From: Rugalucina vietnamica
Taxonomy: Eukaryota > Mollusca > Bivalvia > Lucinida > Lucinidae
Direction: 5' to 3'
Assembly: GCA_964017185.1 (NCBI GenBank)
Contig: OZ024869.1
Span: forward strand, 52,664,761-52,728,760
DNA: 64,000 nucleotides
The position numbers and the translations under genes are program-made. Below are positions 2,395 through 56,146 of the stretch, piece after piece. How positions within the stretch are numbered: position 1 is the stretch's first letter; each line of letters opens with the position of its first letter. The notes below the pieces were generated by a model. It did no database searches. It saw only the letters and a list, made by a program, of their open reading frames with translations, and had not been told where the DNA came from.

Positions 2395-5330
2395 AGCTCA
2401 CCTGAGCCGTCAGGCTCACAAGGTGAGCTTATAGTATACCCATGCTCCGTCGTCCGTCCGTCGTCCGTCGTCCACAATTTTCAAAGATCTTCTTCTCTGA
2501 AACAGCTTGGCCAATCAAAGCCAAATTTTACATGAAGCATCTATGGGAAGGGGGAACCAATGTGTATAAAAATCTTCTTCTCCGGAATCACTGGACCGAT
2601 TTCAACCAAACTTGGCATGAAGCATCGATGACTCAAGTACTACAATGTGTATATAAATCATGACCTTGCCGTGACCTTGACGTATTTTACGGCAAGGTCA
2701 ACATAGGTCGCCTTTGCATTTGAATGGCAAAAATTGTTAAATTGTCATTTAAAGGAAAAATCTTGCAGAAAATGAGCAGTAGGACTGAATATTAATGATT
2801 CTGAAAAAAATTGGGCACCAGGGGCTCATCCGCCCCCACCCCGGGGCAATATACATGTATATTATCATAATATTCAAACATCTCCTCTGAAACCGCTTGG
2901 CCAATCAAAGCCAAATTTTACATGAAGCATCTATGGGAAGGGGGAACCAATGTGTATATAAATAATCCAGGTCACATGACCAAGCGTCCGTCCGTCGTCC
3001 GTCCGGCGTCCGTCCGTCGTCCGTCCGTCCGTCCACAATTTTAAAGATCTTCTTCTCTGAAACCGCTTGGCCAACCAAAGCCAAATTTTATAAGAAGCAT
3101 CTATAGGAAGGGGGAACCAATGTGTATATAAGAAATCCAGGTCACATGACCAAGATGGCTGCCATGCCCATATATGGTAAAAACCCTTCAAAAATCTTCT
3201 TCTCCAGAACCAGTGGACTGATTTCAACGAAACTTAACATAAAGCATTGATGGCTCAAGCACTACAATGTATATATAAATCATGACCCTGTGATGACCTT
3301 GACTTATTTTACGGCAAGGTCAACATAGGTCGCCAATGCATTTGAATGGGGAAAACTTTTAAAATGTCATTTAAAGTCATTTAAAGTGAAAGTCTTGCAG
3401 GAAATGGGCAGTAGGACTGAATATTAATGATTCTGAAAAAAATTGGACCCCAGGGCCTCATATGCCCCCACCCCGGGGCAATATACATGTATATTACCAT
3501 AATATTCCAACATCATCTCCTCTGAAACCGCTTGGCCAATCAAAGCCAAATTTTATGTGAAGCATCAATAGGAAGGGGTAATCAATGTGTATATAAATAA
3601 TCCAGGTCACATGACCAAGATGGCCAAGATGCCCATATATGGTAAAAACCCTTCAAAAATCTTCTTCTCCAGAACAGGTGGATCAATTTCAAAGAAACTT
3701 AGCATGAAGCATCAATGGCTCAAGCACTACAATGTGTATATAAATCATGATCCTGTGATGACCTTGACTTATTTTACGGCAAGGTCAACATAGGTCGCCA
3801 ATGCATTTGAATGGGGAAAACTTTTAAAATGTCATTTAAAGTCATTTAAAGTGAAAGTCTTGCAGGAAATAGGCAGTAGGACTGAATATTAATGATTCTG
3901 AAAAAAATTGGACCCCAGGGGCTCATATGCCCCCACCCCGGGGCAATATACATGTATATTTCCATAATATTCAAACATCATCTCCTCTGAAACCGCTTTG
4001 CCAATCAAAGCCAAATTTTATGTGAAGCTTCAATAGGAAGGGGTTATCAATGTGTATATAAATAATCCAGGTCACATGACCAAGATGGCCGCGATGCCCA
4101 TATATGGTAAAAACCCTTCAAAAATCTTCTTCTCCAGAACAGGTGGATCGATTTCAAAGAAACTTGGCATGAAGCATTGATGGCTGAAGTACTACATTGT
4201 GCATATAAATCATGACCCTGTGATGACCTTGACCTTTTTTTACGGCAAGGTCAACATAGGTCGCCAATGCATTTGAATAGGGAAAACTTTTAAAATGTCA
4301 TTTAAAGTGAAAGTCTTGCAGGAAATGGGCAGTAGGACTGAATATTAATGATTCTGAAAAGAATTGGACCCCAGGGGCTCATCTGCCCCCACCCCGGGGC
4401 AATATACATGTATATTACCATAATATTCAAACATCTTCTCCTCTGAAACCGCTTGGCGAATCAAAGCCAAATTGTATGTGAAGCATCTATGGAGTAGGGG
4501 AATTAATGTATATATAAATTATCTAGTTCACATAACCAAGATGGCTGCCATGCCCATATATGGTAAAAACCCTTCAAAAATCTTCTCCGAATTTTGAGGA
4601 CCGATTTCAAAGAAACTTGGTATGAAGCACCAATGGCTGAAGTACTACAATGTATATATAAATCATGACCCTGTGTTGACCTTGACCTATTTTACGACAA
4701 GGTCAACATAGGTCGCCAATGCATTGGAATGGGGAAAACTTTTAAAAAGTCATTTGAGGTGAAAATCTTGCAGGAAATGGGTAGTAGGACTGAATATTGA
4801 TGATTCTGAAAACAATTGGACCCCAGGGGCTCATCTGCCCCCACCCCGGGGCAATATATATGTACATTACCATAATATTCAAACATCATCTTCTCTGAAT
4901 ATTAATGATTCTGAAAAAAAAAAAAAATGGACCTAAGGGCTCATATGTCCACACCCCGGGGCAATATACATGTATATTACCATAATATTCAAACATTTCC
5001 TCTAAAACCACTTGGCCAATTGAAGCCAAATTTTATGTGAAGCATCTATAGGATGGGGGAACCAATGTGTATATTAATAATCTAAGTCACATGACCAAGA
5101 TGGCCACCATGCCCATATATGGTAAAAACCCTTCAAATATCTTCTTCTCTGAAACCAATAGATTGATTTTAATGAAACTTGGCGTGAAGCATCCATGGAA
5201 GGAATATTGATTAGTCTGAAAAAAGAAAACGGCCCAAGGGCTTCATCTGCCCCTGCACTGGGGTTAAATACCATAATATTCAAACATGTTTATTGGTATA
5301 TGCAGCAGACTCAGGTGAGCGTTTACAGGA
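2395..5330. repeat. Tandem array of about 460-bp units (family I)
   Basis: The array opens with the inverted pair GCTCACCTGAGC / AAGGTGAGCTT and runs of (GTCC)n. The landmark CTCTGAAACCGCTTGGCCAA or a close variant starts near 2498, 2886, 3057, 3519, 3986, 4441 and 4993; the regular spacing in the middle is 455-467 bp. Each unit also carries ATGACCAAGATGGC, CCTTGAC...ACGGCAAGGTCAACA and CACCCCGGGGCAATATACAT. Units vary by deletions and a (CGTCC)n expansion near 2985-3035. Diverged single copies lie near 42.2, 48.0 and 61.3-62.4 kb, so the array grew from a dispersed repeat. Reading frames in it are short and not conserved between units. Confidence 0.9.
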
Positions 5331-11299: not shown

Positions 11300-14200
11300 T
11301 CAACAAGAACCTAATTCTCTCAGCAAATTTGTTCTTTCAGTATACATATCATGCAAATAAGTGAGACAAATTACATTTAAGTCATATTCATTATTTCCTA
11401 AGATAAATTTCAACCTTTCAATTCTGGACATATGTATAAAAGATGGGCTGATACTGGCAAGACGATGAAAGAAATGCTTTCTAATATGTTCCAATTTACT
11501 GCAGTCAAAAATAAAATGTTCTTCGTCTTCAACATCATTCTGACATAGTTTACAAATTCTTTCATTAAGGGGGATCCTATTATTACCTCCCCTTTTATAA
11601 CGTCCCTCTTCAATGAATAGTTTATGAGCACTCAACCTTATCTTACAAAATGTAGAGATTTCTTCTTTAGAATTATCACTTGATAACAAATACTTTTCTA
11701 TAGAATAATCAGTCTTAAATTTTCGATATGTTCTGAGCTTGTTCCCATTAATGGGATTTTCACTGTCATCAAATAATTTACTTTTCCAAAAAGCTGTATA
11801 TGATTCTTTTAGCTTTAGAGTTATAGCATTTATCAACCTGGACTTAGAAAAGGTGCCCTGATTATCCCAAACATGTGTAAAATTTAATTTATTCAAGACG
11901 GTTTTAATATTACTCCCAAATCCTTTAATAAATTGAGAACTATCGTTATACGCTTTGCTTACTAATTTATTATTATCTGACTCAACAATATGCAACCAAA
12001 ATGAAATGCTTGATCTTAGACAATATATAGCTGTAGGAAATAAACCGAGTTCAGCTCTAGCTGCATAATTGGATGCTGATTTGTGAACGCCTAGGACAAA
12101 TTTACAAAATTTAAGTTGAATTCTTTCAGTATTTAAAGTATCATATCTATGTTCTAGAGGCCCCACATGACTAAGGAGTCTCTCACCAGCCCATACCTCA
12201 CTACAGTAAAGCAAAATTGGTTTCACACATTGTTCATAAAGCTTTAAAAACAATAGAGTATTCATTTTATCTGAACCAATGGCTTTTCTAATAAAAAATG
12301 AAGCTTTTAGAGCCTTTTTACAAAGGTAGTTAATTGCATCAGTAAAAGATCCAGAAGGCTTAAAAATAATTCCAAGATATTTATATTCATTTACAATCTC
12401 TATTAAGTTTCCATCAAATTTGAACACATTGCCTTTTATTGTCTTGCCAGATTTATTAAATATAATGACCTTAGTCTTAGAAATGTTAACTTTTAAGTTC
12501 CATTTATTACAAAAAATACTTAGTTTATCAAGAGCGTCTTGTAAACCTGCACTACTATTTGACAAGAGAACTATATCATCTGCATATAATAAACATGAGG
12601 TAACTATATCGCCTATTTGAACCTGATCGCAATCCCCATCAAACAAAGTCAAGAGATCATTTAGATATAACGAGAAAAGACTTGGGCTTAAAATGCAGCC
12701 TTGTTTTACACCAGTCTTTGTAGCAAAACTCTCACTTAGAAAGTTTCCCATTTTAACTGAACAAAACAAAGACATGTACATATCCTTAATAATATTGTAA
12801 AAAGGACCAGTAATATTATATTGAGCTAATTTATAGAACAATGCTTCTCTATTAATCGTATCAAAGGCCTTGCTTAGATCTATAAAACATGAATAAAGAT
12901 ATCGTTTTGACTTAAAGGCTTTATCAATTAGGGTTTTTAACGTTAAAACATGATCACTTGTTCGGCATTGTTTCCTAAAGCCAATCTGCTCAGGACCAAG
13001 AATATTATTTGTTTCAATATAACAATCAAGTCTATTAAACAGAATTTTACTAAATAATTTGCTAAAACAGCTTGAGATAGCTATTCCTCTGTAATTGGAG
13101 GGGTCATAAGTGCCTCCCCCTTTATAAACTGGTTTAATAATATTTTCTCTCCAAACATCTGGATAAGACCCTGTATGAAGAATATAGCTCATCATAAAGA
13201 CATAGTCATTAATGAAAAACTGAGACGATAATTTCAACATCTCATTAGAAATTGCATCGCATCCACATGCCTTTCCATTCTTTAATTCCCTTATTGCTTT
13301 TTTAACTTCATCAGCAGAGATTGCTTTATTTAAGATTGCATTGTCCAAAGACTGAAACTGGGTAGTATTCAAATTGGGATCAAAATTAGTTGCATAATCT
13401 ATATTAAACAAAGATTTAAAATGGTTTATCCATGTATCAGGTGCTATATCTTCAGATGGGTCAGTTTTACTCTTTCCCATCAAATTATTAACTGTAGACC
13501 AAAACTCTTTGGGGTTCTTTTTTTCATTTTGAAGTAGATCACGTAAAACCTTAGATTTGTATATTCTGTGTTTATTCCTTACCAGTTTCTTATACATTTT
13601 TCTTTCATAGTAGATTTTTTCACGCAGATGTCTATCCCATGTATTTTTTGCAAATTGTTTACATAAATATTTCAAATGCTTATATTTTGAAGTGCATTCA
13701 TTATCAAACCAAGGCTGTTTTGCTTTGTGTCTCTTCTTGTTTTTCTTTATGTTTCTGACTGTATTACATTTCGTCAAAGCAGCACAGTTTAAAACTGATG
13801 TAAACTTACTGACCATTTGATTCACTTTTTCCTTTTTAGATAGGTTTTGATCATTTGAAATGTTTGACAGGGTTTGTGAGAAAGCGATTTTATCAATACA
13901 TGCAATGTTATTAATAAAAGACTGTTTCTTAAGATCATCCCAAACAACATTCTTGGGAGGAAGTCTGAGCTTATTTGTGGGTTGGTGACAATAATATGAT
14001 TGGATTTTGACCAAAATAGAACAGTGGTCAGAGAAAGAAATATCAAAATCACTAACATAAAAATATGAAACATCTTTCAACATACTAGCACTGCAAATAC
14101 AATAATCATCTATTGAAGAGCCATTGAAACCATGAAAAGTGGCTTTTCCTCTAGTATCTCCAATTGTTCTGCCATTCAATATTCTTAATTGAGATGATAT

Positions 14201-14890
14201 ACAAATATCTAAAATATTTTTGCCATACTCATTTGTAGTTTGAGAAGAAAAAGTGTTTCTTAATCTGTGAACATTATCAATAGAATAATTTGAAGGGGTG
14301 AAGTCGTCCAAATTGTCTGTTGTTTCATTGCTTATAAAGTCAAGATCACCACTGTTTATATGGGCGTTTGTGTCCCCCATGATCATCACAGCACCATGTT
14401 GGCTATATTTTGCTATGTCAGATTCAAGTTTGTCAAAAATTATTTTATCAGCGTCAACTCTTCTAGTATAACTAGAGGATAACGGAGAAATGTAAATGCC
14501 ACATAAATACAAATCTTGCTCAAAACTGAAAAAGCACTTATTGAGTTTTATCCATATCATATCATGATGAGAGTTATTTATAATCTTAACACCTGTTCTA
14601 AGGTCATTTTTGACAAAAATAGCTATTCCACCCCTAAGTCTACTTGGGGTTGCTGACCTACAATTTGAGACACAAAAATACCCACTCAAATTCAAAACAT
14701 CATTAGAACAAGCATGAGTTTCTGTTAAAATTACAATATCTGAATTGAGTTTTTGGCAGAATAGAGGATTATCTAATTTGCAGGTGCGAATACCATTGAT
14801 ATTCCGAAAAATACCATTTACATTCCAACTACAAATTGTCAACGACTTAGAACAATGCAAAATACTATAACTACACATGAAATACAACAT
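11300..14890 (-). CDS. LINE ORF2: endonuclease / reverse transcriptase, 1,196 aa
   Basis: This is the polymerase polyprotein of an APE-type non-LTR retrotransposon. It nicks target DNA and copies the element RNA in place. Residues 19-295 are the apurinic-type endonuclease: SWNVNG at 21-26, the Glu in TETH at 57, GDTNAH at 172-177 and SDHCSI at 287-292, the expected catalytic positions. The reverse transcriptase spans about 570-850: YKGGG at 589-593, NYRGIA near 599, FIDLSKAFD at 669-677, KQGCILSPSLFS at 729-740 and the catalytic YADD at 769-772. A CCHC knuckle (C1113, C1116, H1125, C1130) lies near the C-terminus, as in many LINE ORF2 proteins. No frameshift or internal stop is seen over 3.6 kb, so the copy is young or active. 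The start MLYFMCSY is the first Met of the frame; a downstream start would still keep the endonuclease only if it lies before residue 19. Confidence 0.96.
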   Translation of the reverse strand: MLYFMCSYSILHCSKSLTICSWNVNGIFRNINGIRTCKLDNPLFCQKLNSDIVILTETHACSNDVLNLSGYFCVSNCRSATPSRLRGGIAIFVKNDLRTGVKIINNSHHDMIWIKLNKCFFSFEQDLYLCGIYISPLSSSYTRRVDADKIIFDKLESDIAKYSQHGAVMIMGDTNAHINSGDLDFISNETTDNLDDFTPSNYSIDNVHRLRNTFSSQTTNEYGKNILDICISSQLRILNGRTIGDTRGKATFHGFNGSSIDDYCICSASMLKDVSYFYVSDFDISFSDHCSILVKIQSYYCHQPTNKLRLPPKNVVWDDLKKQSFINNIACIDKIAFSQTLSNISNDQNLSKKEKVNQMVSKFTSVLNCAALTKCNTVRNIKKNKKRHKAKQPWFDNECTSKYKHLKYLCKQFAKNTWDRHLREKIYYERKMYKKLVRNKHRIYKSKVLRDLLQNEKKNPKEFWSTVNNLMGKSKTDPSEDIAPDTWINHFKSLFNIDYATNFDPNLNTTQFQSLDNAILNKAISADEVKKAIRELKNGKACGCDAISNEMLKLSSQFFINDYVFMMSYILHTGSYPDVWRENIIKPVYKGGGTYDPSNYRGIAISSCFSKLFSKILFNRLDCYIETNNILGPEQIGFRKQCRTSDHVLTLKTLIDKAFKSKRYLYSCFIDLSKAFDTINREALFYKLAQYNITGPFYNIIKDMYMSLFCSVKMGNFLSESFATKTGVKQGCILSPSLFSLYLNDLLTLFDGDCDQVQIGDIVTSCLLYADDIVLLSNSSAGLQDALDKLSIFCNKWNLKVNISKTKVIIFNKSGKTIKGNVFKFDGNLIEIVNEYKYLGIIFKPSGSFTDAINYLCKKALKASFFIRKAIGSDKMNTLLFLKLYEQCVKPILLYCSEVWAGERLLSHVGPLEHRYDTLNTERIQLKFCKFVLGVHKSASNYAARAELGLFPTAIYCLRSSISFWLHIVESDNNKLVSKAYNDSSQFIKGFGSNIKTVLNKLNFTHVWDNQGTFSKSRLINAITLKLKESYTAFWKSKLFDDSENPINGNKLRTYRKFKTDYSIEKYLLSSDNSKEEISTFCKIRLSAHKLFIEEGRYKRGGNNRIPLNERICKLCQNDVEDEEHFIFDCSKLEHIRKHFFHRLASISPSFIHMSRIERLKFILGNNEYDLNVICLTYLHDMYTERTNLLRELGSC

Positions 14891-14953: not shown

Positions 14954-15574
14954 CAGTCAGGGACAAAACCTAAACAAGTTATAAAAAAAAAATAACTGAA
15001 ACAAGTTATTTTTCATTTTCCCTGCATCAGTCAAAATCTGTGAAGTTTTTCTTAATTTAATTGAAATATGCAGGGTTTTACGTAATTAAATTGTTAATGG
15101 GAGATGCAGCAAGATGAGAGCTTTATACTCACAAGGCTGAAAGTTAGTATATACCATTAAGATTTTGAAAATTTCAGTTTTTTATGCATTTTTTTGGCAT
15201 CAGAATGGCAAAATCCCTGATTTTAAAACATCTGTTCCCACCTTACAAGAATTTTGGCACATGTCTAGACAATTTTCCTAGGATGATGTAACTTTAATGT
15301 AGCTACTACAAAAGAATTTCTTAGTACGCATAGTCTAAAAAGTGGTACGCAGGTACTTCAAAGACAAGTGGGGTAATGATACTAATAACCTATTCAAGTT
15401 AATATTGTCATAATTACCAATAAAAGCATAACTTATATAAGTGGTTTTTTGATCTGAAAAAAATATCCAAGAAAAGTGAACTCTAACATCTTGGAAAGGG
15501 AGATCATTTAAAGTGTATTAATAACTTGTTTCAGTTATTCCTTTTATAACTTGTTTAGGTTTTGTCCCTGACTG
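14954..15574. mobile_element. 621-bp non-autonomous DNA element inside the LINE
   Basis: Inverted ends of about 55 bp: CAGTCAGGGACAAAACCTAA, then ACAAGTTATAA and TAACTGAAACAAGTTATT, answered at the right by AATAACTTGTTTCAGTTATT...GTCCCTGACTG. TGTAT is duplicated exactly at 14,949-14,953 and 15,575-15,579. The interior is AT-rich without an ORF. It lies 64 bp upstream of the ORF2 start. The first ten bases are the same as those of the 10.9-kb structure at 45,079-56,001. Confidence 0.88.
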
Positions 15575-18579: not shown

Positions 18580-20988
18580 TTAATTTCTGTTCATAACCTG
18601 CAGTAAGGCAGATGCTAGATCAGAAACCATACGCCCTTGCCCCCAAAAATTCTGCTGCTGGGGCCCTCGACCAAAATTACCATATGACCTACTATTTTGA
18701 TAGTAACCCCTAGAAGGAACAGGTAGAGCATGTGATTGCGTCTCCCTTTGGGGTCTTTGCCTACCACCAGATCTTTCATTTTTAGATGACTGAAACATGT
18801 TGAGAGCAAACCTCATATTACTAGCAAGCAACTTTGTACCCTCAAAATTGGGGTGTATATTGTCTTTAAACAAACTGTCTTTGATTCGCCCCTGATTGGA
18901 AAAATTGTCATTTCTAATAATTATGAGTTTTTCCATCTTATCAAGTTTGTGAAACAACAAGCTAACAAGACCAGCAACTTTACTGGCCAGAACTGGCTCT
19001 TTGCAAACTAAAGGTAAAGACAAGATAACCTTGTCTGCCTTCTGTACACATAGTTTAGTCAGATTTTCAAGGTCTTTGGACACTTCATCTACACCTTTGG
19101 ATTTCAAGTCATTTATGCCAACATGAAGCATAATAGTATTGGAATGAGAAACGTTCTCTTGTACCCAGGAATGGGCCTCTGTAACTGTGGCAGTGAAGAT
19201 TTTCTTGCTCTTATTCTGGTCAACATTTATCAGTCTTTTCAAGTCAATATCTTTGCATACTGAGTCATGTAAAAGAACAGCCTGATATATTGTCTCATTA
19301 TTTCTACCGGCTGTTGACATAGCACCCTCGGATAAATCATCTGATACGTTACGCACACGAGGCGACTCCTCCACAAGCGGTGACTCTATACCAGTTGCAC
19401 TGTCCTGACTATCTTTGTCTCCTTGCTCATCTTCACAGATTAATATCGCAGATGAGTCATCACTGCGACACCCATTTTGAATCAAATTTTGTTGAGCAGT
19501 GGGACCTATGATTTTTTGAGAAGATCCCTTAGCTACAGGTTTTTTCTTGTTCCACAGTTCCCCATTGAAATCATAAGCCATATTAGATAATCTGTCTTGT
19601 AATTCTTGTATCATTTCGTTTTTATCCTTCAGTCTTTCTTCATACTGATTTGCAGCAGAAACTGATTTCTTTTTCTCAAATTCCAATGACATTTCCAACT
19701 TTTCACATCTGAAGTTAAGGCCCTGGTTTTCTTTTTCAAGGGATTTAATTTTGTTTTTTAGCATACTTGTTTCATTTCCATGGCTTGTCATTTTCTTTTC
19801 CATTTCAGTTTTATGAGAGGTTGTTAATTCCTTGAGTTTCAGATCATATTTCTCTCTTTGTGCAGTTTCACTTCCTGAGTTAAACACATTAATTTTTTCT
19901 ACTAGTTCTTTCTTATCTTTTAATTGGCGCTCCTCCATGGAGTTTAATTTGCTTGCTATATTGTCCATTTGTTTATCCTTGCTATTGAAAAGTTTGGTCA
20001 ATTTATCAGAAATGTCAATGAGCCGGTCCTCAAAAATGTCCATGCGTTTATCTACTTTACTGGAATGTTCAGATACTTTAAGATTCAAATCATCACACCG
20101 TTTGGTAAATTTATCAGAAATGTCAATGAGCCGGTCTTCAGAAATGTCCATGCGTTTACTATGATCTATTTTATTGGTATGTCCAGATACTTTTAGATTC
20201 ACATCACCATTTTCTATCGTCCCATTCATGAAAACACTGTCTTCTGACTCTGATCTAGACTTTGATCCTATGGCAGGTGAGATCAAAATGCATTCCTCAC
20301 GATTGTTTTTCTTACCCAGGATGTTAGATTTTCGACTAGGGGTAACTTTGGGTGAAACAACAGATTTCAATAGAGTTTCTTCACTTTTGTCTATTTCAGA
20401 ATTTTTACCTCTACTTTTAGATTTTGAACTTGGAGTGTGCTGGGGTGAAACAACACCTTTTACCACAGTTTCTTCACTTTTGTTTATTTCAGTATAAGTA
20501 TCTTTAACTCTGCACAATTCATTAACAGTATCAAGACATGTAGAAAAAAGTTCCCTGCACCATTTATTGTAAGCCTTGCCCTGAACCATGATCTTTCCAG
20601 TTGTCAGGAAGAATATGACCTTATACAAGAAATCATCTTCTGTGTCAATACTGTCTAAATGCTCATACACAATGAATTCAGTACTCTGCACAGCGTTTTC
20701 TCCCATTGTGTCCTGCCACATTATACTGAGGGTATCATTAGAACAACTTTCCTTGTACAATATGTCTGCCACTGCTGATATCCAGGGGTGCATTCTACTT
20801 TCATTTGTGATAAAACAAGAGCAATGTGCATTTGCTCTGTAAAGTCCAGGGACAATAGCCTCGAAAGGAATTACTCTTCCTGCATTTGTTTTCTGTCTGG
20901 TTTTATATGTCAGATCAATGGGATATTCTTTCTTCAGATTTTTCAAAGACCAGTCCTGGGCCGAATCAAGTTGTCTTGAAAGCGCCAT
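18580..20988 (-). CDS. LINE ORF1: coiled-coil protein with SGNH-hydrolase domain, 802 aa
   Basis: This is probably the RNA-binding chaperone-like partner of ORF2; esterase-type ORF1 proteins are known from CR1-like LINEs. Residues 1-165 form a folded N-terminal region I do not recognise. Residues 167-196 and 198-227 are a tandem duplication (SEETVVKGVVSP against SEETLLKSVVSP). Residues 266-296 and 304-332 are a second one (RMDISEDRLIDISDKFTK against RMDIFEDRLIDISDKLTK). About 300-480 is a charged heptad-rich coiled coil. The SGNH domain covers about 566-735: HDS at 574-576 where the family usually has GDS, GIND at 624-627, and DNIHPN with D709 and H712, so Ser, Asp and His are kept. The C-terminus is rich in G, Q and R. 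No internal stop. The start MALSRQLD is the first Met of the frame. Confidence 0.92.
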   Translation of the reverse strand: MALSRQLDSAQDWSLKNLKKEYPIDLTYKTRQKTNAGRVIPFEAIVPGLYRANAHCSCFITNESRMHPWISAVADILYKESCSNDTLSIMWQDTMGENAVQSTEFIVYEHLDSIDTEDDFLYKVIFFLTTGKIMVQGKAYNKWCRELFSTCLDTVNELCRVKDTYTEINKSEETVVKGVVSPQHTPSSKSKSRGKNSEIDKSEETLLKSVVSPKVTPSRKSNILGKKNNREECILISPAIGSKSRSESEDSVFMNGTIENGDVNLKVSGHTNKIDHSKRMDISEDRLIDISDKFTKRCDDLNLKVSEHSSKVDKRMDIFEDRLIDISDKLTKLFNSKDKQMDNIASKLNSMEERQLKDKKELVEKINVFNSGSETAQREKYDLKLKELTTSHKTEMEKKMTSHGNETSMLKNKIKSLEKENQGLNFRCEKLEMSLEFEKKKSVSAANQYEERLKDKNEMIQELQDRLSNMAYDFNGELWNKKKPVAKGSSQKIIGPTAQQNLIQNGCRSDDSSAILICEDEQGDKDSQDSATGIESPLVEESPRVRNVSDDLSEGAMSTAGRNNETIYQAVLLHDSVCKDIDLKRLINVDQNKSKKIFTATVTEAHSWVQENVSHSNTIMLHVGINDLKSKGVDEVSKDLENLTKLCVQKADKVILSLPLVCKEPVLASKVAGLVSLLFHKLDKMEKLIIIRNDNFSNQGRIKDSLFKDNIHPNFEGTKLLASNMRFALNMFQSSKNERSGGRQRPQRETQSHALPVPSRGYYQNSRSYGNFGRGPQQQNFWGQGRMVSDLASALLQVMNRN

Positions 20989-44879: not shown

Positions 44880-44967
44880 AATATAGATGGTCTTCCTCAC
44901 TAGTGACAAAGAACCAAGATGGGGTCTTATACTTTCTAATACAGTTCTGTATATAGAAAACCATTAC

Positions 44968-45078
44968 ATTACGAAAACACGCCCATGCAGTAGACAGATT
45001 TTTTTCGTCTGTAGAAATTGAAAATTTTCAGTCGAAAGTTTTTGTTGTTTTTCTTATTTTTGCTCAAAACATAAAATT
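44968..45078 (+). mobile_element. Family B copy 8, left half
   Basis: GAAAACACGCCCATGCAGTA to TTTTTGCTCAAAACATAA, then AATT. It stops in the first hairpin arm at the border of the 10.9-kb structure; the other half begins at 56,002. Confidence 0.88.
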
Positions 45079-45219
45079 CAGTCAGGGAAACTCGCTGAAT
45101 ACCGCGATGTTGAAGATCGCTGTTTTCCGCGATGTTGAAGATCGTCGTTTTCCGCGATGTTGTTGTTGTTGTAAAATAAAAATTAAAAATGGCCGTATAT
45201 CTCTGGGATTACAGACAAC

Positions 45220-46640
45220 TCTCCCCAGAATAGTTTAGAATAGTTTACAACTCGTCCCAAGACAACTCTCCCCAAAGTTAACTCGTCCCAAGACAACTCG
45301 TCCCACTTTTAAAAGACAACTCGTCCCACTTTAGAAGACAGCTCGATCCCACTTTCTTTGACCACCCCTTTAACTCTCTCTTCTTTATCCCAGCTTCGTC
45401 GGTCCGTAAGTCAACGCAAAATCAACATACAAAGATTTTGAAAAATAATGAGGATTGAAAAACATAAAACACAGTATGGCCACAGGTACATAGATAGATA
45501 ATACCAATAATTACCGGTAACTTCAAACTGTTGTGAGTCGTTCTAATAGACATTTTTCACTTTTGAACGTAAATGCTGCTGGCGCTTGCGGTTATGACTT
45601 TCCGTGTGATGGGGGACGACTCGTGAGGGCATATTTGAGACGAAGACGAGGGACGATATGAAGAATTACTTAGTCAAAACTACCAATAGCCCGACGAAGA
45701 CGAATTAAATGAGAGAGTCAAAAAAGTGAAATAGTCAGGACGTGTAGCTGTGTAGCTCAGTAGGTAGCGTTCTTGGAGTTGAACGAGAAAGGTCCTGGGT
45801 TCGAGTCCCGGACCGATCACTTTTTTTTCTTTTCTTTATTTGTCTCTTGTGACAAAAAAGCTTTGCAAATAAAACATAATATATTATCAGCTGATTATAT
45901 TTTTTGGCAAATACAAGAATCATGAAATGCCCTACTACATTAAATTCTTAAATCGTAAAGGAATTGAAGTTTGAGACGGCAGCCTACATGTATGTTTTCT
46001 CTTGTATTGGGAGCTTGACCGTATTTTTGGCATGAGAGCTGATCTATCTGATCGTCAATATTTCTTTCTGGGTGACATGAAAATATGAATATACTGAAGG
46101 CTTGTACAGGCATAATGTGGCTAGGATAAGTTAGCCACCCTGAACGACTTAAACTGAATGTTTTCCGCGGACGTAGGCACTAACTCAAATAGTACACTGT
46201 ATAGATAGTACACTGTATAGTGTACATGTAAAGATATATGTATATTTATTAGGTGTAAGACCTACAGTTCCACGTGCTGTCTCGTGAGAGGACATAATTT
46301 ATTTTGGCATGTTTATACATGTATTTCAAACAGATACTCGATATCTTGTTGTTATTTATTTGGTTGATGTTTCGTTTTGAGTCCATTAGACGATAAGTGC
46401 GATATCCTAGCTACATTTTGCATAGCCATACAAATAAGTTGAGGTTTTGTAGACCTTCCACAGTATTTCAGCATTTTGGATGCGATAATTACGATTTTTG
46501 GATGTTTTTTTTTCCAAGTCAACGGCTTTCTTTCTGATCCTCATTTATTCTCTTGAATTATGCGTGATGTTTATCTGGTTGAATTCAAATAAATATTTAT
46601 AATTAAACTTCAAACTAAAACTAAGAAACATACAGTTCGT
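45220..46640 (+). repeat. Left arm of the large inverted repeat
   Basis: It starts with repeated ACAACTCGTCCCA motifs (45,240-45,350). GACATTTTTCACTTTTGAAC, GGGCATATTTG and GAAGAATTACTTAGTCAAAA follow, then a tRNA-like segment, TACAGTTCCACGTGCTGTCT and TGATCCTCATTTATTCT. All of these recur inverted and in the same order in 52,760-50,590. Confidence 0.85.
45746..45818 (+). tRNA. tRNA-like sequence (pseudogene or SINE head)
   Basis: A box TAGCTCAGTAGGTAGCG and B box GGGTTCGAGTCCC are present, followed by a T run. The acceptor and anticodon stems do not pair convincingly, so this is not called a functional tRNA. The counterpart in the right arm lies at 51,627-51,697. Confidence 0.45.
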
Positions 46641-46703
46641 TTTTTCATAACGTGCCGCGTACCTTGCTTAACCCTAAAACAGGATGACAATATTCTTTAC
46701 ATG

Positions 46704-46738
<35 letters not shown>

Positions 46739-46774
46739 GCACGCACACACGCACGCACGCACGCACGCACGCAC
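46704..46774. repeat. (CA)n/(CGCA)n microsatellite
   Basis: About 30 bp of (AC)n passes into (GCAC)n. Confidence 0.95.
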
Positions 46775-46887
46775 GTTCCGTTGATTACTTCATATCGCAG
46801 TGGTTCAGTCAGTCGCTTCGTAAAATCACATGTCGAGAATAAATACGTACATGTAGTTGATATAAGACTGGTACAAAATTATTTTTA

Positions 46888-47092
46888 GGGAGCACGGTGG
46901 CGTAGTGGTAGGGCGTCTGACTCCGAATCGAGAGGTCCTGGGTTCGATCCCCATAGGCGCCACCGTGTTGTGTCCTTGAGCAAGACACATTCACTCCTTA
47001 CTAACTGGTTAAACCCAGGAAGCGTTGGCTCCGTCCCGTCATGACTGAAAAAATGTTGACTGGGACATAAAGCCTTAATAAAAAATGATTTT
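46888..47092 (+). mobile_element. SINE type III, tRNA-derived, full length
   Basis: Head GGGAGCACGGTGGCGTAGTG, B box GGGTTCGATCCC, then GTGTTGTGTCCTTGAGCAAG, CAGGAAGCGTTGGCTCCGTC and GACTGGGACATAAAGCC with an A-rich tail. Confidence 0.88.
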
Positions 47093-47855
47093 GATAAGAG
47101 CATCTGACTCGTTAGCTCAGGAGGTTAAGCGCGAGTAGGAAACGCCTATTTTTATTGGAATTATTTTTTTTTCGCAGAAAAAAAACAAACAAACTTAAAA
47201 CCAAAATGCATTGGTAAAATGCAAAAATAAAGAAATCCAATTAAACATATAAATCGTAAACAATGTTATCATATGCAATAGTAACAATGATTATTGTTGT
47301 CTTCCCGTTTAACTGTCTGATTTAATGGAACAATGAACCAGAAGTGGCCTTTGACACGACATGTTTACAAAATCGCACCATCAACCGTCATGTTTGCCAT
47401 TAAAGATACATTACGCGTTCAATGCGAGTCGGTCTTATAAATGCTTGGCGCGAATAAAACAGCTTCCAGTGCAGAATATTATTTTTTTAGACACTCGTGT
47501 GTATAACTAGGGATTGCTAGTTCAATTCTGAGCTGCCCATGGCTTTATGGTTACACTATAAACCGAGATCCCGTCTGCAAATGACGATAACTGTTGGTGG
47601 GGAAACAACTATCAACTATTTGTTATCTCCATGTGACTTTTAACATACTGGTGCATGTATATACGTACATTGGTTCTGTTAAGCTACATTTCACGTGTTT
47701 TTCGTGAACACACAGAAACTTTTTTTACATGTAAACATGGCAAGATTTACGATTTGAAACATTTAGTTGATCTTTAATTTTATGTGTACTTCTTTTTATT
47801 CTACGCCTTACAACGTTTTGACACATTTCAAGTAATATCGAGCATGGTCTGTTAT

Positions 47856-47947
47856 CCTCATCAGGATAACATGTCCGTGACATGTTTACCCCATTGAACA
47901 ACGCTTTTATAAAGCAAAACTTGAGTATGCAGGGGTATACCTAGTTT
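47856..47947 (-). mobile_element. Family B fragment (right end, inverted)
   Basis: Read on the minus strand: TAGGTATACCCCTGCATACT, then TTTTGCTTTATAAAAGCG and ACATGTCACGGAC. It abuts a family I repeat. Confidence 0.7.
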
Positions 47948-48690
47948 TAGCTCACATGAGCCCTTCGGCTCAAAAGGTGAGCTTATAGGATGGCCATGCC
48001 CCTGTCAACAATTTCCATGATCTTCTTCTCTGAAACAGCTTGGCCAGTCAAAGTTAAAACTGTTTGCGGAGCATTCTTAGGAAGGGGAAACGAAATTTGC
48101 ATAAATGGACCAGGTCATATGACCAAGATGGCCGCCTTGGCTATAAATAGCAAAAACCGTTAAAATTTTTCTTCTCCAGAACCAGAAGGCCTATGATCTT
48201 GTAACTTGGCATGAAGCATCAAACAATATTAAACGCACTACAAAGATCGGTAAGATCAACTTACATGTATGTCACCCATGCATTTAAATGGGGAAATAAG
48301 TTAAATGTAATTAAATGGGTGGAAACTTGCTATGATAATACAAATGGACAGATTTATTTTTGTGAAAACATTAAGACCCAGGTGGTTGTCTGCTCCTGCC
48401 TGGGGGATATATACATGTATATGACTATAATATTGAAACATCTTCTCTGCAACCGCATGGTCGATCAAAGCCAAACTTCGTGGAAGGGGAACGAAAGTTT
48501 GTATTAATGGTCAAGGTAACTTGACCAAAATGGCCGCCATGGCTATGAATTGAAAAACCTTTAAGTGTTCTTTTTCAGAACCAGTAGGCCTATGATTTTG
48601 AAACTTGGCATGAAGCATCTACATAGTCTATATATGACCCAGGGATGACATTAACCTATTATAGGACAAGGTCAACTTAGGTTGCCTATG
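47948..48690. repeat. Diverged family I repeat, about one and a half units
   Basis: It opens GCTCACATGAGCCCTTCGGC, then TTCTTCTCTGAAACAGCTTG and ATATGACCAAGATGGCCGCC. A second partial unit starts near 48,435 (CATCTTCTCTGCAACCGCAT). TTATAGGACAAGGTCAAC lies near the end. Confidence 0.8.
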
Positions 48691-48697
48691 CTTCTGA

Positions 48698-48805
48698 AAA
48701 CATAGATTGTGAGTATTCGTTCTATTATGTGTCCACAATCTATGTTTTGAACAAATAAGAAAATATCAAAACTGTTGAAATGAAAATTTTCATTTTTTTT
48801 TTTCA
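48698..48805 (+). mobile_element. Family B hairpin fragment
   Basis: AAAACATAGATTGTGAGTAT and GTCCACAATCTATGTTTTGA are the outer hairpin arms with the inner stem lost. Confidence 0.75.
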
Positions 48806-49034
48806 ACTTATAAAACACAGTGTATTTTGCTTGTTAAGGTTTTGTAATGATATCGTCATGATACAGGGTACCGTTTTAGTGCACATGTAATACACATGCT
48901 GACGACAGATCTACAACATTTTATCATTCTTAACCTTACTCATTAGGGCCCATCTTTGCGTCCGGAATCGGGCAAGCATATATAAGCACATAAGCTTCTT
49001 ACTCATTCTGTTTAAATAAATAATAAATTGAATC

Positions 49035-49190
49035 GGTTTGTTGATTTGGGCGTTAATCCAACAGCAAAGGTCATATGGAAACGAGACCTCAGTTTATAGT
49101 CTCATCCGACAGACGCAAGAAGACCCGGATCAAACCTGCGATCTCTGGTTTATAAGGCACGTGAAATAACCACTGCACCATGGTGGCTTG
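49035..49190 (-). mobile_element. SINE type IV, tRNA-derived
   Basis: On the minus strand: GCCACCATGGTGCAGTGGTT head, degenerate B box AGGTTTGATCCGG, then TCTCGTTTCCATATGACCTT and GGATTAACGCCCAAATCAAC. Confidence 0.7.
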
Positions 49191-49724
49191 CTTAATAGGT
49201 TCAGTATAAACTTTATCATGATAGAAATCGTACTTTTAAATGTTAAAATAGGACAAAAGAACGCATGCCCTTAACATCAACTGCGTTCGGCTTGCCAAGC
49301 AGCAATGTGGTTTGATAACGGATCCGGCTTGATATGATCTTTGTTTTGTCGATGGGCCCTAGGACAAAATGTTGCCCTGTTACATGTATATATATTAAAA
49401 TCATGAATGGCGGTTCGTTTGTTTACATACAGTATAAAAGGTCGGTAAATGGACACGTGAAATGTCTGCGTAGTATACTGTACATGTATATGAATATGTG
49501 TATTCGGGTATTGTCTATCAGTGTCAGCACCATCGAGTATGCTTGCGATACAATCAAAGTCCTTACAACAAAGATTGATGCAACATCACACAACATGTGA
49601 TAAAATGGATTAAAACAACCTTCAGCGCAGCAATATCGCTTTGGCAACTACCAACACCAAGACAATGAATTCTTCGCCGTAGCCTTGCTGCCCAATTGAT
49701 CAGTCTTACAATCACGGGTGACAC

Positions 49725-49850
49725 AAACCAAGTTCTGCTTGTGGGTGTGCAAGTTCGTTTTCTCAGGGTTCTCCCCTTTCCCCCCTGTTACTGATTTACC
49801 CGTCTCATATGAAGTAAAATAATTTTGAACGGGCCGAAACTTGTATAAAA
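49725..49850 (+). mobile_element. SINE type II, 5'-truncated
   Basis: CAAGTTCTGCTTGTGGGTGT, TTCTCCCCTTTCCCCC and a degenerate GGGCCGAAACTTGTA tail. The tRNA head is absent. Confidence 0.65.
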
Positions 49851-50089
49851 AAACCCGCATCATTATGATCAGAAATGAGCACAATCAGACCCTTATCTGT
49901 AATCAAGTAACAATAGAATGACCAAGAATCTATACAATTACATTTCCCATCCTAACATAGACAACAGGCGGGAGAGACATGGCGGTCCCACACATCACAA
50001 GCAATTTAACAACACGCATAAAAAACAAAATTACTAGCTCTTTTCAAACAAGACCAGCGTCTAGTCTGTTAAAAGGGACAATAGGCGGC

Positions 50090-50346
50090 CCCCGTGGCCG
50101 AGTGGTTAAGGTCGCTGACTTCAGTGCTCTTGATCATTCGATCATCTCCCCGCTGTTGGTTCGCGCCTCGCACGGGACGGAATTCACATGTGGGACGAGC
50201 CAAGTTCTGCTTGCGGGTGTGTCAGGTGGTTTTTCCCCGGGTACCCCGGTTTTCGCCCCACTTTCTGTTTGATTCGTCTCGATATGAGTGAAAAGGCTTG
50301 AAAGGGACGTAAAACTGAATTAAAAAAAAAAAAAAAAAAAAAAAAA
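50090..50346 (+). mobile_element. SINE type II, full length
   Basis: GGCGGCCCCCGTGGCCGAGT head, modified B box GGTTCGCGCC, CAAGTTCTGCTTGCGGGTGT, AAGGGACGTAAAACTGAATT and a 26-bp A tail. Confidence 0.88.
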
Positions 50347-50995
50347 GGACAATACACGAGGCAATATTCTTAGGAAAACACATGTGTCAATGTGAAGACA
50401 GTATACACCATTATTTGTGAAACAAATTAATAATTTGTGCACTTTGACAGAATATGTAGTGTCCAAAATTGCTTCTACGTGTATGTGAAAATGGCGAACA
50501 TCAAAAGTAAACTGCGGCGAAGTGACGCGCGACCCGCTTTACGGGGCGACTGAAACACTATGCGTCCTCTTCGGAAACACTTAAGAAACTCATGAAAATA
50601 ATATAATTGTGTTAGTTTGATTTTAATTTATTTATTTGAATTCAACCAGGTGAAACAGCACGCATACCATCACACAGAATAAATGAGGATCAGAACGAAA
50701 GCTTATGTCTTGCCAAATTAATTTTCTACATCGTAACCATCGCACTCGATATGGCAGAAATACTGTTGAAAGTCTACAATAGACAAAAACAGTTGTGTGG
50801 CTAGGCATATTGTAGCTACATGTAGGGTATTGCCCCCATCGCTCTTCCTACTGTCGAATGGACTCAAAACGACATATCGAAAAAATAAACATTGTTCGCT
50901 CACGAGATAGCACGTGAAACTGTAGTTTTACATCTATACACATATATATGAACATGTACACTATACTGTTTGATTTGGTGTCTTGTGTATTTGTT

Positions 50996-51231
50996 AAAAT
51001 TCAGTTTTACGTCCCTTTCAAGATTATTTCAACTCATATGAAAAGCACCAAACAGTAGGTGGGGCGAAAACGGGAGTACCCCGAGAAAAACCGCCTGGCA
51101 CACCCGCAAGCAGAACTTGGCCTGTCTCACATGTGGCCATTGTGGGTCTCGAACTCACACCAGACACAACGGTGAGATGATTAAGTGATTATGAAACAGC
51201 GCTCTTAACTGCTCGGCCACGGGGGACGCTT
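50996..51231 (-). mobile_element. SINE type II inserted in the right arm
   Basis: The minus-strand head GCGTCCCCCGTGGCCGAGCA and B box GTTCGAGACC run to TGAAAGGGACGTAAAACTGA. Its absence from the left arm dates it after the inverted duplication. Confidence 0.88.
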
Positions 51232-51626
51232 GCGTAGTTTTTTTAGTCATTAGAGGCGGTCAGCTTATCCTATCCACATTATCTGTACCAGCCAGTCAGG
51301 AAATAAATGTTGACGTTAGGATCGGTCGCTGATCCGTTCTTCTGCCGAAAATGACGATCGAGTTCTCGGCTTCAATGGGTGAAAAATCAAGACCTATAGA
51401 AAAACCTATACATGCGGTATGCCTTCTCACTAGACAGTTTAGTCCAGAAACTTACGATTTAGTATTAAATGCAGCAGTGAATTTTGTGATTTTTGCATTT
51501 GCCAATAGATAAAATATTATTTTCTTTTTTTTTCCTTTTTTTCATTTCTTTTTAATTTTCTAAGCTTTATTGTCACAGGTGCGAAAAAAGGAAGAAACAA
51601 AGAAAAGGAAAAATATTTTGGTCCTA

Positions 51627-51697
51627 CCCGGACTCGAACCCAGGACCTTTCGATTCAATGTCTTACACTCTACCTACTGAACTATTCAGCTAGGCGT
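51627..51697 (-). tRNA. tRNA-like sequence (pseudogene or SINE head), right arm
   Basis: Minus strand: GTTCAGTAGGTAGAG (A box) and GGGTTCGAGTCCG (B box). It is the counterpart of 45,746-45,818, with several differences. No convincing cloverleaf. Confidence 0.45.
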
Positions 51698-52149
51698 CCT
51701 TGACAATTCGTTTTTAGCGTGTCTCATTTAATACACCTCCGGTGGGCTGTTGGTAGTTTTGACTAAGTAATTCTTCATATCGCCCCCCGCCTTCGTCCCA
51801 AATATGCCCTCACGAGTCGTCGCCCATCACACACAAAGTCGTAACCGCAAGCGCCAGCAAACTTTACGTTCAAAAGTGAAAAATGTCTAATAATTACACC
51901 TGGGCCAATTAACTGTAACGCATGGTAGAGATACAGGCACAAACATTATCTTATCAACACCCGTTCCATAACTTTTTGTTGAATTACTAAAGCACTAGTA
52001 GATATGTATAAGTTAAAATTGGCACGTGTCGTTAACCGACTTCTTTTAAAGTATTTTAGCAATAGGCTTGTGGTGTACCATTTTACTCAAAATTGACATC
52101 ATTTGTAATATAGCGACATGAGTTTGACTGAATTTAAAGTTTGCAAAAA

Positions 52150-52205
52150 GTTAAAAGTTTCATCTGAAGAAGGCTGTGAAAGGCCGAAACATTAGGAAAA
52201 AATAG
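52150..52205 (+). ncRNA. Possible hammerhead-like core
   Basis: CTGAAGA, then a three-base stem GGC...GCC around TGTGAAAG, then GAAAC: the order of a hammerhead catalytic core, in which the seventh core base is variable. Stems I and III could not be confirmed. Such motifs occur in Penelope-like retroelement repeats. Confidence 0.2.
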
Positions 52206-52985
52206 TGCTTCTAATAGAAAGAAACAAGACTTCATGTTGTTCTTCCTTAGAAGACACCGTAGAATTACTGTCAAAATTGACGCCAAAATTTAATATGTAT
52301 GGTCTTCAAGTTTAACCATTTGTGTTTTATTCTTCTCAAAACATGTGGAAGGTACTTTTATTTATAAACAGTGTTCTGTACGAATATAAGTAAATTTATT
52401 TCACAAGTCCAAACGAGGAATCATCAATTTTCTATCCAAATATAGCTTTCACAACTGTTGGTCGATTGAAACACCTGAATAACACCTGAATACATGTACT
52501 TCAATACTTGAAGTTGTATCCACTGTAAGAGACGTTCGCGCAAATGTATGGTAGATTTACCTGTATACTCGGAGAACATGATGTAAAATAGAAGGAAAAA
52601 GAAAAAGGAAGAGTGGGTCGAGTAGTCCTCTAAAGTAGAGATGGCATCTAAGGGAGAGTTGTCTTCTAGAAGTGGAGAGCGAGTGCGAGATTTATGTGGG
52701 GAGAGATGTTTTTTGGGTGAGATATCTTTGTGGAGAGTTGTCCTGATCCCGATCTCCACCGCTGACGTTTCGGTACACCATCAGTTAAGCTACAAGTTAG
52801 CAGGAAACCTAGACGTGATGCGTTTTGCTCACAGCAGACGATAGAATCATATTTTTAAACAAAAAAAAATTGGCTTTTGGATACTTTCCTTGTAATACGT
52901 TAAAACGTAACATTTTCTTTAGGATAGGGTCACTTATGTTTGCTTGCATTATTTCTAGTTTCATTTTTCTTCTTTCTTTTATATT

Positions 52986-52990
52986 TTATT

Positions 52991-53041
<51 letters not shown>

Positions 53042-53046
53042 TTATC
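52986..53046. repeat. (TTTA)n microsatellite
   Basis: About 15 tetranucleotide copies. Type III SINE 3' sequence (TGTCCTTGAGCAAGACACCT) follows at about 53,205-53,270. The remainder of 52,761-53,581 holds nothing recognised. Confidence 0.95.
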
Positions 53047-54234
53047 TTTTTGTGGGGGTGGTGATTTAATTGTTATCTTTTTGTGGGTGTGGTGGTGGTC
53101 ATGTTTTAATACAAGTATTTTGCCAGAGCCTGGCGGATAATGTTAAGCACCAAGAAAAGACGTCACTGTTACTTAGATTCAGACCCGCTGCGTGCCGTGA
53201 TGTGTCCTTTGTGTCCTTGAGCAAGACACCTCAACTCTCCATACTTCTGGTTTACTCAAGGAAGAATTAGGAAACGATGGCATGTATGATCCGTATGCTA
53301 GAACTTAGAGTAGGCCCATAGTACCATGCATTTTTTTTATTGTTTAGAGAAAATTTCAAAATAGAATAGTGGACAATTAGACACCCCATCGGGTTGTGCC
53401 TCTGAAACCACAGGAGGGATATACTGTAGAAATGAAGAGCAGACGAAATACATAAAAAAAATGCGTCTTCAAAACCCAGAAACCTCAAGGTCTTTAAATG
53501 CCTGTCATAAGCAAACGCATCGGTAGATGTTTTAGATGCATCGGTAAAATTTTAGATAATTGATTAATTTACCAAAATTTAGGCCAAAAAAAATAATACC
53601 ATTGTTTCTCAGGCCACTTTTTGGAGAAACAGATGCGGGCGGCAGGTTTTTTATTTTAATTTTTATTTGAACAAAAACGAATGCGGGCGGCGGCATTTTT
53701 TTTTTTTTTAACTTTGTTTTTTCTGGGGGGAGGGGGGTCGGTATGGAGATATGGCGAGTGAGTGATAAACGGACAATATGCTTCCGGTGATCTATGCCCG
53801 AGTCACCGTACGGTAACTCTCGTTTAATTTATGATCGATATTTCACACCTAATTTGTGATTGTCAAAATTGGTTGAGCATTAGTAATTCGGAAACAAATG
53901 AATATCATACCTATTGGTCTAACACTTAATCCGATAACAATAGATTTGAGAACATCAGTCAGCACGAGTTCCCCCCAATTATCATGATTATCACGCTCTC
54001 TGAGTACATCTCAACACAAGTCATAATCTCCGCCCATTGGCCCATGAGATAGCGAATGACGACGTCAATCAGTAATTCTTGTCAAGACATTTTAATAACT
54101 TGTCGGAAAAGAATCGAAATCCACTGTATGTTGTGTCAGCAAGTAACACATTCTTTTCTTGTCCTTATTTTCTAATTTCACTCGAATGAAAGTTTGAACA
54201 TTGTACCGATCACACATCGGTGATCATATGATAG

Positions 54235-54465
54235 CGAAATGATGAGAGTATTCGCTTCGGGCACGGGAGGTATCGGGTTGGATCCCGGGCTGCGTGATAC
54301 CAAAAACTTTAAAAATGGTACCAAAAAATACCTTGCTAGCTTGGCGCTCATCATTCTTAAAGCAAGCACTGGCATCTCTTCTCCTAAAAAGATAACTTCA
54401 GTGATGGGAATACAATTATTGAGGTGGTGGTTGGTAACGGGCAGTTTAGTTCTATCATTAGATGA
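54235..54465 (+). mobile_element. SINE type I, diverged
   Basis: GGGAGGTATCGGGTTGGATC (B box region), CGTGATACCAAAAACTTTAA, CTTGCTAGCTTGGCGCTCAT and GAGGTGGTGGTTGGTAACGG follow the order of the copy at 1,441. The A box and tail are poor. Confidence 0.65.
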
Positions 54466-54479
54466 TTAGAGTCTGGTGA

Positions 54480-55265
54480 TTGCAATACCCTTACTCGGGG
54501 TTAAAACGAGGTGTGCCGGTAAGTCAGCGGCGGAACACTATACGAACATACAACGTACATGGCATGACTAATTATATTATTCCACAAAGAATTCTTGCGG
54601 ATGCTCAAAACACTCATTTTCCCAGCGGGAAAGTAAAGAAATCACATTTGTTTTTCAGCGTGAACTTTTACCTACCTTCCCGGACATTACCGTTCTCAAT
54701 CGCGAATATTAAATGTAGGTGTCCTAATGTTTTGGACCACAAAAATTGTTCACGAAATCATTGACCAACGTGTCATCAATAGCCTATAATAACCCAATGT
54801 TTGCGGTAACGTTACGGTCTACCAATAATCCCCTAGTCACGAGTGCGATAACATGTATCGCTCGGCTTATTTTTAAAACTATTGTGGATTAATATAATTT
54901 GAGTGTCATTCACGCTTCGCGAGCAATGGATTGTGTCACCTAAACATTAGTGAGATGACAATTATCACTCACGAGTATGTATACACGAATTTTGAGCAGA
55001 CGACATGGTTCATTCACATTAGGCTATCAAAAACACAATTTTCCATTTCAAATGTGTTTATTCATTTTTAAAGTACATGTACTTAAAAGAGAAACTGTAA
55101 GAAAACTGCGCCTTGGCGAATGCCCGGGAAACGATATTTCATTTTTCCTCTCCGCGAGTTTTGATTTTTTACTTGCACATAAATAAATTAGTATAAAGGA
55201 ACACAAGGGTAAAACGGCGCCTTGGTACCGCCGTCGCGATATTTGAGTGGATGAAATTTTGGTTT
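54480..55265 (-). mobile_element. Relic of the pogo-like element (see 59,115), mostly inverted
   Basis: On the minus strand, AAGGCGCCGTTTTACCCTTG, GTTTTCTTACAGTTTCTCTT, TAGACCGTAACG and GACACC parallel 59,235-59,820. One block near 54,510 (GTAAGTCAGCGGCGGAAC) matches in the direct orientation, so part was rearranged. Confidence 0.65.
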
Positions 55266-56001
55266 ACCAGGCTATATAGCAGTACAGGTGTCTACATGTT
55301 TAATACAATTATTCAGTGGCTATCTAAACCTTATGATATAAACAGCTGAAACAAGCATTAGAATATCTACATCGGTACGTTGAACCGTCACGATTTGACT
55401 ATTACACAACATGACCGCATGTAATTTAGCCCAACTAAAGTTCGTACGTAAACTGAACATGGACAATAGAACGCGGGATTGCTACCTAGACCCTATGTGT
55501 TTTTGACTAAAAATTGAATACCTCTAACAGACATTACCATATACTGTACCTGCACATCATGACGAAGCAGCTCGGTCCTTTGGTTAAGGCTCGAAATGTC
55601 CCGGAACCGTGTCATAACGAATACCGTGTTACTAGCCGTCATGCGCAGACTGCATGCGCAGTCGTTTTTCTGAAAACCGCCAACGGAAAAAAGTGACAAG
55701 AGTGAAGGTTTCAAGACAAATGCGGTGGTTTCTGTATTTTTTTTTATTTTGAGCAATAAAAAAGGGTAATGCGGTGGGTCTGAAAGAGATGCGGCGGGGC
55801 CTGAGAAACATTTATATTTTTTTTTTTGGCCTTATACTCACTTTTTGTAACGGATCGATTGCCTTTGTACAGGATCACAAAAACGCTTGAAAAATTCAAA
55901 TATCGCGGAATTCTACGATGTTGAGCCCGCCATTTTTCCGCAAGATCGCGGAAAAGCGCGATGTTGGCAACATCGCGGTATTCAGCGAGTTTCCCTGACT
56001 G

Positions 56002-56146
56002 AATTGTGGGTACACCTAAGAACCGCCTCATGTTTTGGAGCAAAAATAAGAAAAATAGGTATACCCCTGGATATCCCAGTTTTTCTATATGAAAGAGGGG
56101 TATACGGGGGTATTCATTACATGGACATGTTTTCCTGATGATATAT
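56002..56146 (+). mobile_element. Family B copy 8, right half
   Basis: AATT then GTGGGTACACCTAAGAACCG, a deleted inner hairpin, GGAGCAAAAATAAGAAAAAT, GGTATACCCCTGGATATCCC and TTACATGGACATGTTTTCCT. Confidence 0.88.

Follow-up and report, generated by a model that had tools for sequence, protein, structure and literature searches.

The 64,000-nucleotide stretch of the Rugalucina vietnamica genome analysed here (the window, C1:52664761-52728760, contig OZ024869.1) carries, between positions 45079 and 56001, a 10.9-kb structure with inverted ends lying inside a copy of a repeat that we refer to as family B. The sequence CAGTCAGGGAAACTCGCTGA is found at 45079-45098 on the forward strand and at 55982-56001 on the reverse strand, with ATACCGCGATGTTG directly inward of it at either end (45099-45112 and 55968-55981); in continuous form, the left end reads CAGTCAGGGAAACTCGCTGAATACCGCGATGTTG from 45079 onward, and the exact reverse complement of this sequence finishes at 56001. 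The terminal arms are perfect inverted repeats of 34 identical bases, for which a repeat finder reports 38 complementary bases once the palindromic AATT on each side is included. An earlier inspection of the letters by a model (the sequence-only reading) had described 10.9 kb of DNA with the same inverted sequence at both ends and AATT borders, and the exact positions confirm it. From comparison with related copies elsewhere in the genome, the 10.9 kb is best read as a core of about 2,326 bp and two later insertions, rather than as one large transposed unit.

The flanks of this structure, when joined with a single AATT, align through other copies of family B. The joined sequence is GCTCAAAACATA-AAATT-GTGGGTACAC, for which the 28283 copy of family B has GCTCAAAACATAGATTGTGGGTACAT; in a longer comparison the joined flanks read GCTCAAAACATAAAATTGTGGGTACA and the 28283 copy GCTCAAAACATAGATTGTGGGTACA. 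Since the two halves, once joined, align through sibling B copies, they most plausibly represent a single copy that has been interrupted, and the proposal that halves of a single family B element sit 10.9 kb apart is upheld by a junction that rejoins exactly with one AATT. Both B halves occur in order and no more than 150 bp apart at seven places, where the gaps between the probe matches are 60, 60, 60, 61, 61, 64 and 130 bp; the corresponding gap in the rejoined window copy is about 29 bp. Judged by these spacings, the window copy is without some 32 bp of the palindrome centre seen in its siblings, and the absent bases fall within the right-hand flank, away from the junction. Rejoining therefore restores one hairpin arm, as had been proposed, but not the complete hairpin.

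The composition of the interior (Table 1) emerges from comparison with sibling copies retrieved from the 1.09-Gb assembly (47 contigs), in which all genome-wide searches were made. Four copies recur below: W is the window copy, L008 lies on C2, the C3 copy comprises L056 and L043, and the C9 copy comprises L042 and L011. The core measures 2,326 bp counting one copy of each inner duplication, and the alignments used a 2,332-bp version that includes a few junction bases. Against L008, the window gives matching blocks with additional sequence at two places. Minus a 7,885-bp insert of its own, the C3 copy gives a single, end-to-end alignment with the core at 93.9%. The alignments of the C9 copy and of L008 with the core are broken into blocks at 90-95%, apart from one part of C9 at 80%. 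The site of insertion 1 is uninterrupted in all three siblings compared (L008, C9 and C3), and that of insertion 2 is uninterrupted, with a single TTA, in 13 of the 14 siblings checked. Copies of AAT at 45545-45547 and 51889-51891 form a tentative duplication around insertion 1, whose long, imperfect arms are about 74% similar over about 430 bp, with similarity again further inward, and which contains fragments of family B as well as of a 465-bp satellite. Insertion 2 has terminal inverted repeats of about 33 bp (88%) and is flanked by TTA at 53579-53581 and 55832-55834.

Table 1. Features of the interrupted family B copy and of the structure within it (window positions).
Feature	Position	Strand	Remarks
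Family B host repeat, left half	44964..45078	+	aligned to B copies in window and other loci
Target-site duplication AATT, left copy	45075..45078		matches 56002-56005
Left terminal inverted repeat, 34 bp perfect	45079..45112	+	25-bp subterminal repeats continue to 45161
Core segment 1	45079..45547	+	colinear with L008 (C2), C3 and C9 copies
Nested insertion 1, 6,341 bp	45548..51888		inverted ends AGACATTTTTCACTTTTGAACGT and reverse complement, AAT flanks
Core segment 2	51892..53581	+	sibling-copy comparison
Nested insertion 2, 2,250 bp	53582..55831		GGCC-starting imperfect terminal inverted repeats, TTA flanks
Core segment 3 (right end)	55835..56001	+	right-end matches of family
Right terminal inverted repeat, 34 bp	55968..56001	-	
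Target-site duplication AATT, right copy	56002..56005		
Family B host repeat, right half	56006..56141	+	aligned to B copies in window and other loci

The satellite pieces within insertion 1 (window 47858-48798) lie between right-half and left-half family B pieces, an arrangement that looks as if the satellite sat within a B copy; the same 465-bp satellite forms a tandem array at window 3043-4899.

The termini belong to a dispersed family. The exact 16-base terminus occurs at 47 places in the assembly and its reversed control at none, and chance does not account for this; the exact first 20 bases occur at seven places. Among 11 pairs of neighbouring termini less than 12 kb apart, ten face inward and one does not, the inward pairs spanning 370, 394, 1,135, 1,663, 1,929, 1,937, 2,426, 3,890, 10,554 and 10,923 bp. 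The last is the window's own, and the others show both termini in inverted orientation at other loci, where the sequence-only reading had suggested looking for them. The 370- and 394-bp pairs lie at C9:57213349 and C14:49088577, and the 10,554-bp pair at C3:59026913. With the right 170 bp as query, 40 of 183 candidates were scored, and the best 15 of these, the window's included, are right ends of the core family: their matches reach the end of the query, with divergence beyond it, and 14 finish in CTGACTG and one (L019) in CTGGCTG. A tree of right ends was set aside, since the 400-bp stretch taken from the window copy extended into insertion 2; it served solely to locate the C3 left end. The remaining 25 matches cover positions 1-147 only and none was counted as a family copy; the 15 of them that were read (L027-L041) have different ends, belonging to another high-copy repeat. 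That repeat (L027-L041, L053-L055) has in common with the right end of the core a subterminal sequence of about 147 bp, at 85-86%, followed by a different terminus, and the stretch they have in common suggests internal sequence exchanged between repeat families.

A perfect 4-bp target-site duplication borders every copy read from end to end (12 of 12, the window included; L046, L047 and L052 were left out because their second end was unread). The duplications are AATT, AACA, TATT, AATG, AGTT, AAAT, AACT, AATT, GATT, AATG, AACG and AATT, and most of these pairs are non-palindromic, which identifies them as duplications and not as extensions of the inverted repeats. All 12 match AANN or its complement NNTT, with a chance probability of about 2.5e-9 given the base composition of the window, for a pattern chosen post hoc and sites assumed to be independent; the core family has an apparent AANN target preference. 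Some variation affects the termini themselves: the C9 copy has lost 14 bases from its left end, and in L050, L051 and the C3 copy one of the two ends has a substitution among its first 9 bases. Nine of the copies read are shorter, with lengths of 1.1-3.9 kb.

Other copies of the family have been enlarged by other means. In the C3 copy, 10,239 bp long, the 7,885-bp insert lies at core position 583; this insert has open reading frames of 855 and 309 amino acids (aa), of which the former encodes endonuclease and reverse transcriptase domains, indicating that the insert is or contains a non-LTR (non-long-terminal-repeat) retrotransposon. The 7,259 bp of the C9 copy include an insertion of about 3.7 kb whose internal direct repeats are nearly identical, a tandem array of about 1 kb, and an insertion of about 0.3 kb that is 73% similar to part of a 1.57-kb segment peculiar to L008 among these copies (see below). 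On the C3 contig, L047 has an exact second terminus at a span of 10,554 bp, and no frame longer than 130 aa was found in the first 9.5 kb of that pair. Ends about 10 kb apart therefore recur, with contents that differ among the copies read, as is predicted by nested growth and not by the movement of a fixed large unit. Within the C9 insertion of about 3.7 kb (L042 8896 to L011 3052; C9:37538895-37542551, approximate), a 217-bp repeat is present three times at 98.6%, and overlapping 1.4-kb units are 99.7% identical, a pattern that suggests recent local amplification within a transposon.

The coding capacity of the family is small. The C3 insert excepted, frames in the 12 complete copies reach at most 135 aa (in L051). 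Nine frames outside that insert, a subset of the short frames, were tested against Pfam: eight of 98-135 aa (from the window, L008, L011, L050 and L051) gave no hit at E up to 0.01, and a 212-aa frame in the sibling-shared part of the incomplete copy L046 had none at E up to 1. A ubiquitin-like match among four L046 frames scanned (L046:5717-6127) lies beyond the sibling-shared part and was set aside. No DDE transposase was seen among the frames of the 12 copies, eight of their frames outside the C3 insert having been Pfam-tested along with the one from L046. Given the short frames and the lack of Pfam matches, the copies are taken to be non-autonomous, and the core was probably moved by an enzyme encoded elsewhere.

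Taken together, these findings argue, with a probability that we put at about 0.94, for a non-autonomous cut-and-paste transposon of about 2.33 kb in a family B copy, later stretched by two nested insertions. An element with CAGTCAGGG termini inserted into the B copy, duplicating AATT, at a site that is uninterrupted in sibling B copies; a transposase encoded elsewhere in the genome would have moved the core in trans; and two unrelated transposons of 6.3 and 2.25 kb then entered the core, in either order, so that its ends came to lie 10.9 kb apart. The termini, the 4-bp duplications and, through the sibling copies, the uninterrupted B site, the core and both nested insertions are shown directly, while cut-and-paste movement, a transposase acting in trans and a composite that has not itself moved are inferred. 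Several points weigh on the other side. Insertion 1 has only a short duplication (AAT), and two bases of its flank are not those of the C9 sibling (by eye), so that the exact junction of insertion 1 is tentative; the fourteenth sibling (L049) gave no match to the pattern for the site of insertion 2 and could not be aligned there; the uninterrupted sites all come from copies at other loci, none from another haplotype; and no autonomous partner was found among the copies read, which leaves the trans-acting enzyme only inferred.

The sequence-only reading had offered two alternatives, either that a very large non-autonomous unit had moved or that a smaller one had grown as other elements inserted into it, and the uninterrupted state of both sites in siblings favours the latter. 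Transposition of the full 10.9 kb in a single step, with the nested insertions already inside, is very improbable: its intact, identical 34-bp termini could still be recognised by a transposase, but at shared sites insertion 1 is absent from each of three siblings and insertion 2 from 13 of 14 (one not alignable), the other long copies (C3 and C9) have different inserts at different positions, and the single composite known, many of the 47 termini being unread, needs insertion events only. We give almost no credence to a rearrangement that joined B halves from different copies, the inverted ends then being unrelated to insertion. The shortfall of about 32 bp in the rejoined palindrome centre could be taken to favour such an event; the absent bases lie inside the right flank, however, and at each of 11 other loci the same ends are bordered by a perfect 4-bp duplication.

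A refinement compatible with nested growth, possible in our estimation but at somewhat less than even odds, is that internal deletion of a longer member of the family, one that once carried the transposase, gave rise to the core; the alternative is a driver with which the core has only its termini in common. L008 has about 1.57 kb that is absent from W, C9 and C3 at core position ~520-537, and part of this is present in L046, where it is colinear with L050; W, C3 and C9 consequently look like deletion derivatives. On the other hand, the extra 1.57 kb has short frames only, and no coding copy was seen.

Cut-and-paste DNA transposons moved in trans are characterised by inverted ends, by a duplication of constant length (here 4 bp) that differs in its surroundings from copy to copy, and by interiors that vary. 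The core family, with inverted repeats common to dispersed copies and a duplication of fixed length, has the features by which class II DNA transposons with terminal inverted repeats are recognised. It resembles non-autonomous (DDE-type) elements of that class and miniature inverted-repeat transposable elements (MITEs) in its terminal repeats, fixed-length duplications, variable copy lengths and deleted or rearranged interiors, and in having no recognisable transposase. Its shorter copies, at 1.1-3.9 kb, are longer than typical MITEs, which are smaller than this. Insertion 2 differs in type: PIF/Harbinger elements have 3-bp TWA duplications and G-rich inverted termini, and the TTA duplication and G-rich inverted termini of insertion 2 make it a putative Harbinger-like element. 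No long frame was found in its 2.25 kb, and frames of 98 and 112 aa had no Pfam match; an autonomous relative was not searched for.

Among named superfamilies, Academ, like the core family, comprises animal DNA transposons, no shared feature having been positively tested; duplications of 3-4 bp are also known for it. In the available part of one source the superfamily is described as expanded in bivalves (PMC10294476), and the part available of another gives its duplications as 3 bp (PMC5199201), unlike the 4 bp found in 12 of 12 core-family copies. Three Dictyostelium families of Sola2 have, according to the portion available of PMC3627910, 4-bp AWWT duplications and inverted repeats of 12-13 bp; the A+T-rich character and the length of the duplications agree (the latter in 12 of 12 copies), whereas the core-family inverted repeats are 34 bp and AWWT is matched by only 4 of the 12 duplications. 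In Repbase, as stated in the available part of PMC4455052, the criteria for sorting non-autonomous elements are the length of the duplication and the first 11 bases of the terminus. A literature text search with the 9-base terminus and the word "transposon" gave no match, although a terminus inside a longer word, a figure or a supplement would escape it. Because terminus, duplication length and target preference matched no named superfamily here, there is an outside chance that the transposase driving the family represents a superfamily or lineage not yet described.

The observation at this locus is genuine, and growth by nested insertions, an ordinary process, is well supported. The window provides a well-resolved case in which a modest non-autonomous transposon has become a structure of more than 10 kb with intact ends, and separate copies of one family (window, C3 and C9) have grown through different nested insertions. 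The general understanding of transposition is unchanged, while the clean termini, the 4-bp duplication and the apparent AANN preference provide handles for finding an autonomous partner.

Elsewhere in the window, a 621-bp element (14954-15574) has inverted ends CAGTCAGGGACAAAACC, with 57-bp arms at 93% and TGTAT on both sides; its first 9 terminal bases are the same as those of the core family, yet the apparent duplication is of 5 bp. It sits between two frames on the reverse strand (11300-14890 and 18580-20988), one of 1,196 aa that has endonuclease and reverse transcriptase domains, the other, upstream of it, of 802 aa. The latter, which has no Pfam match, may be the first open reading frame of the 1,196-aa reverse transcriptase element.

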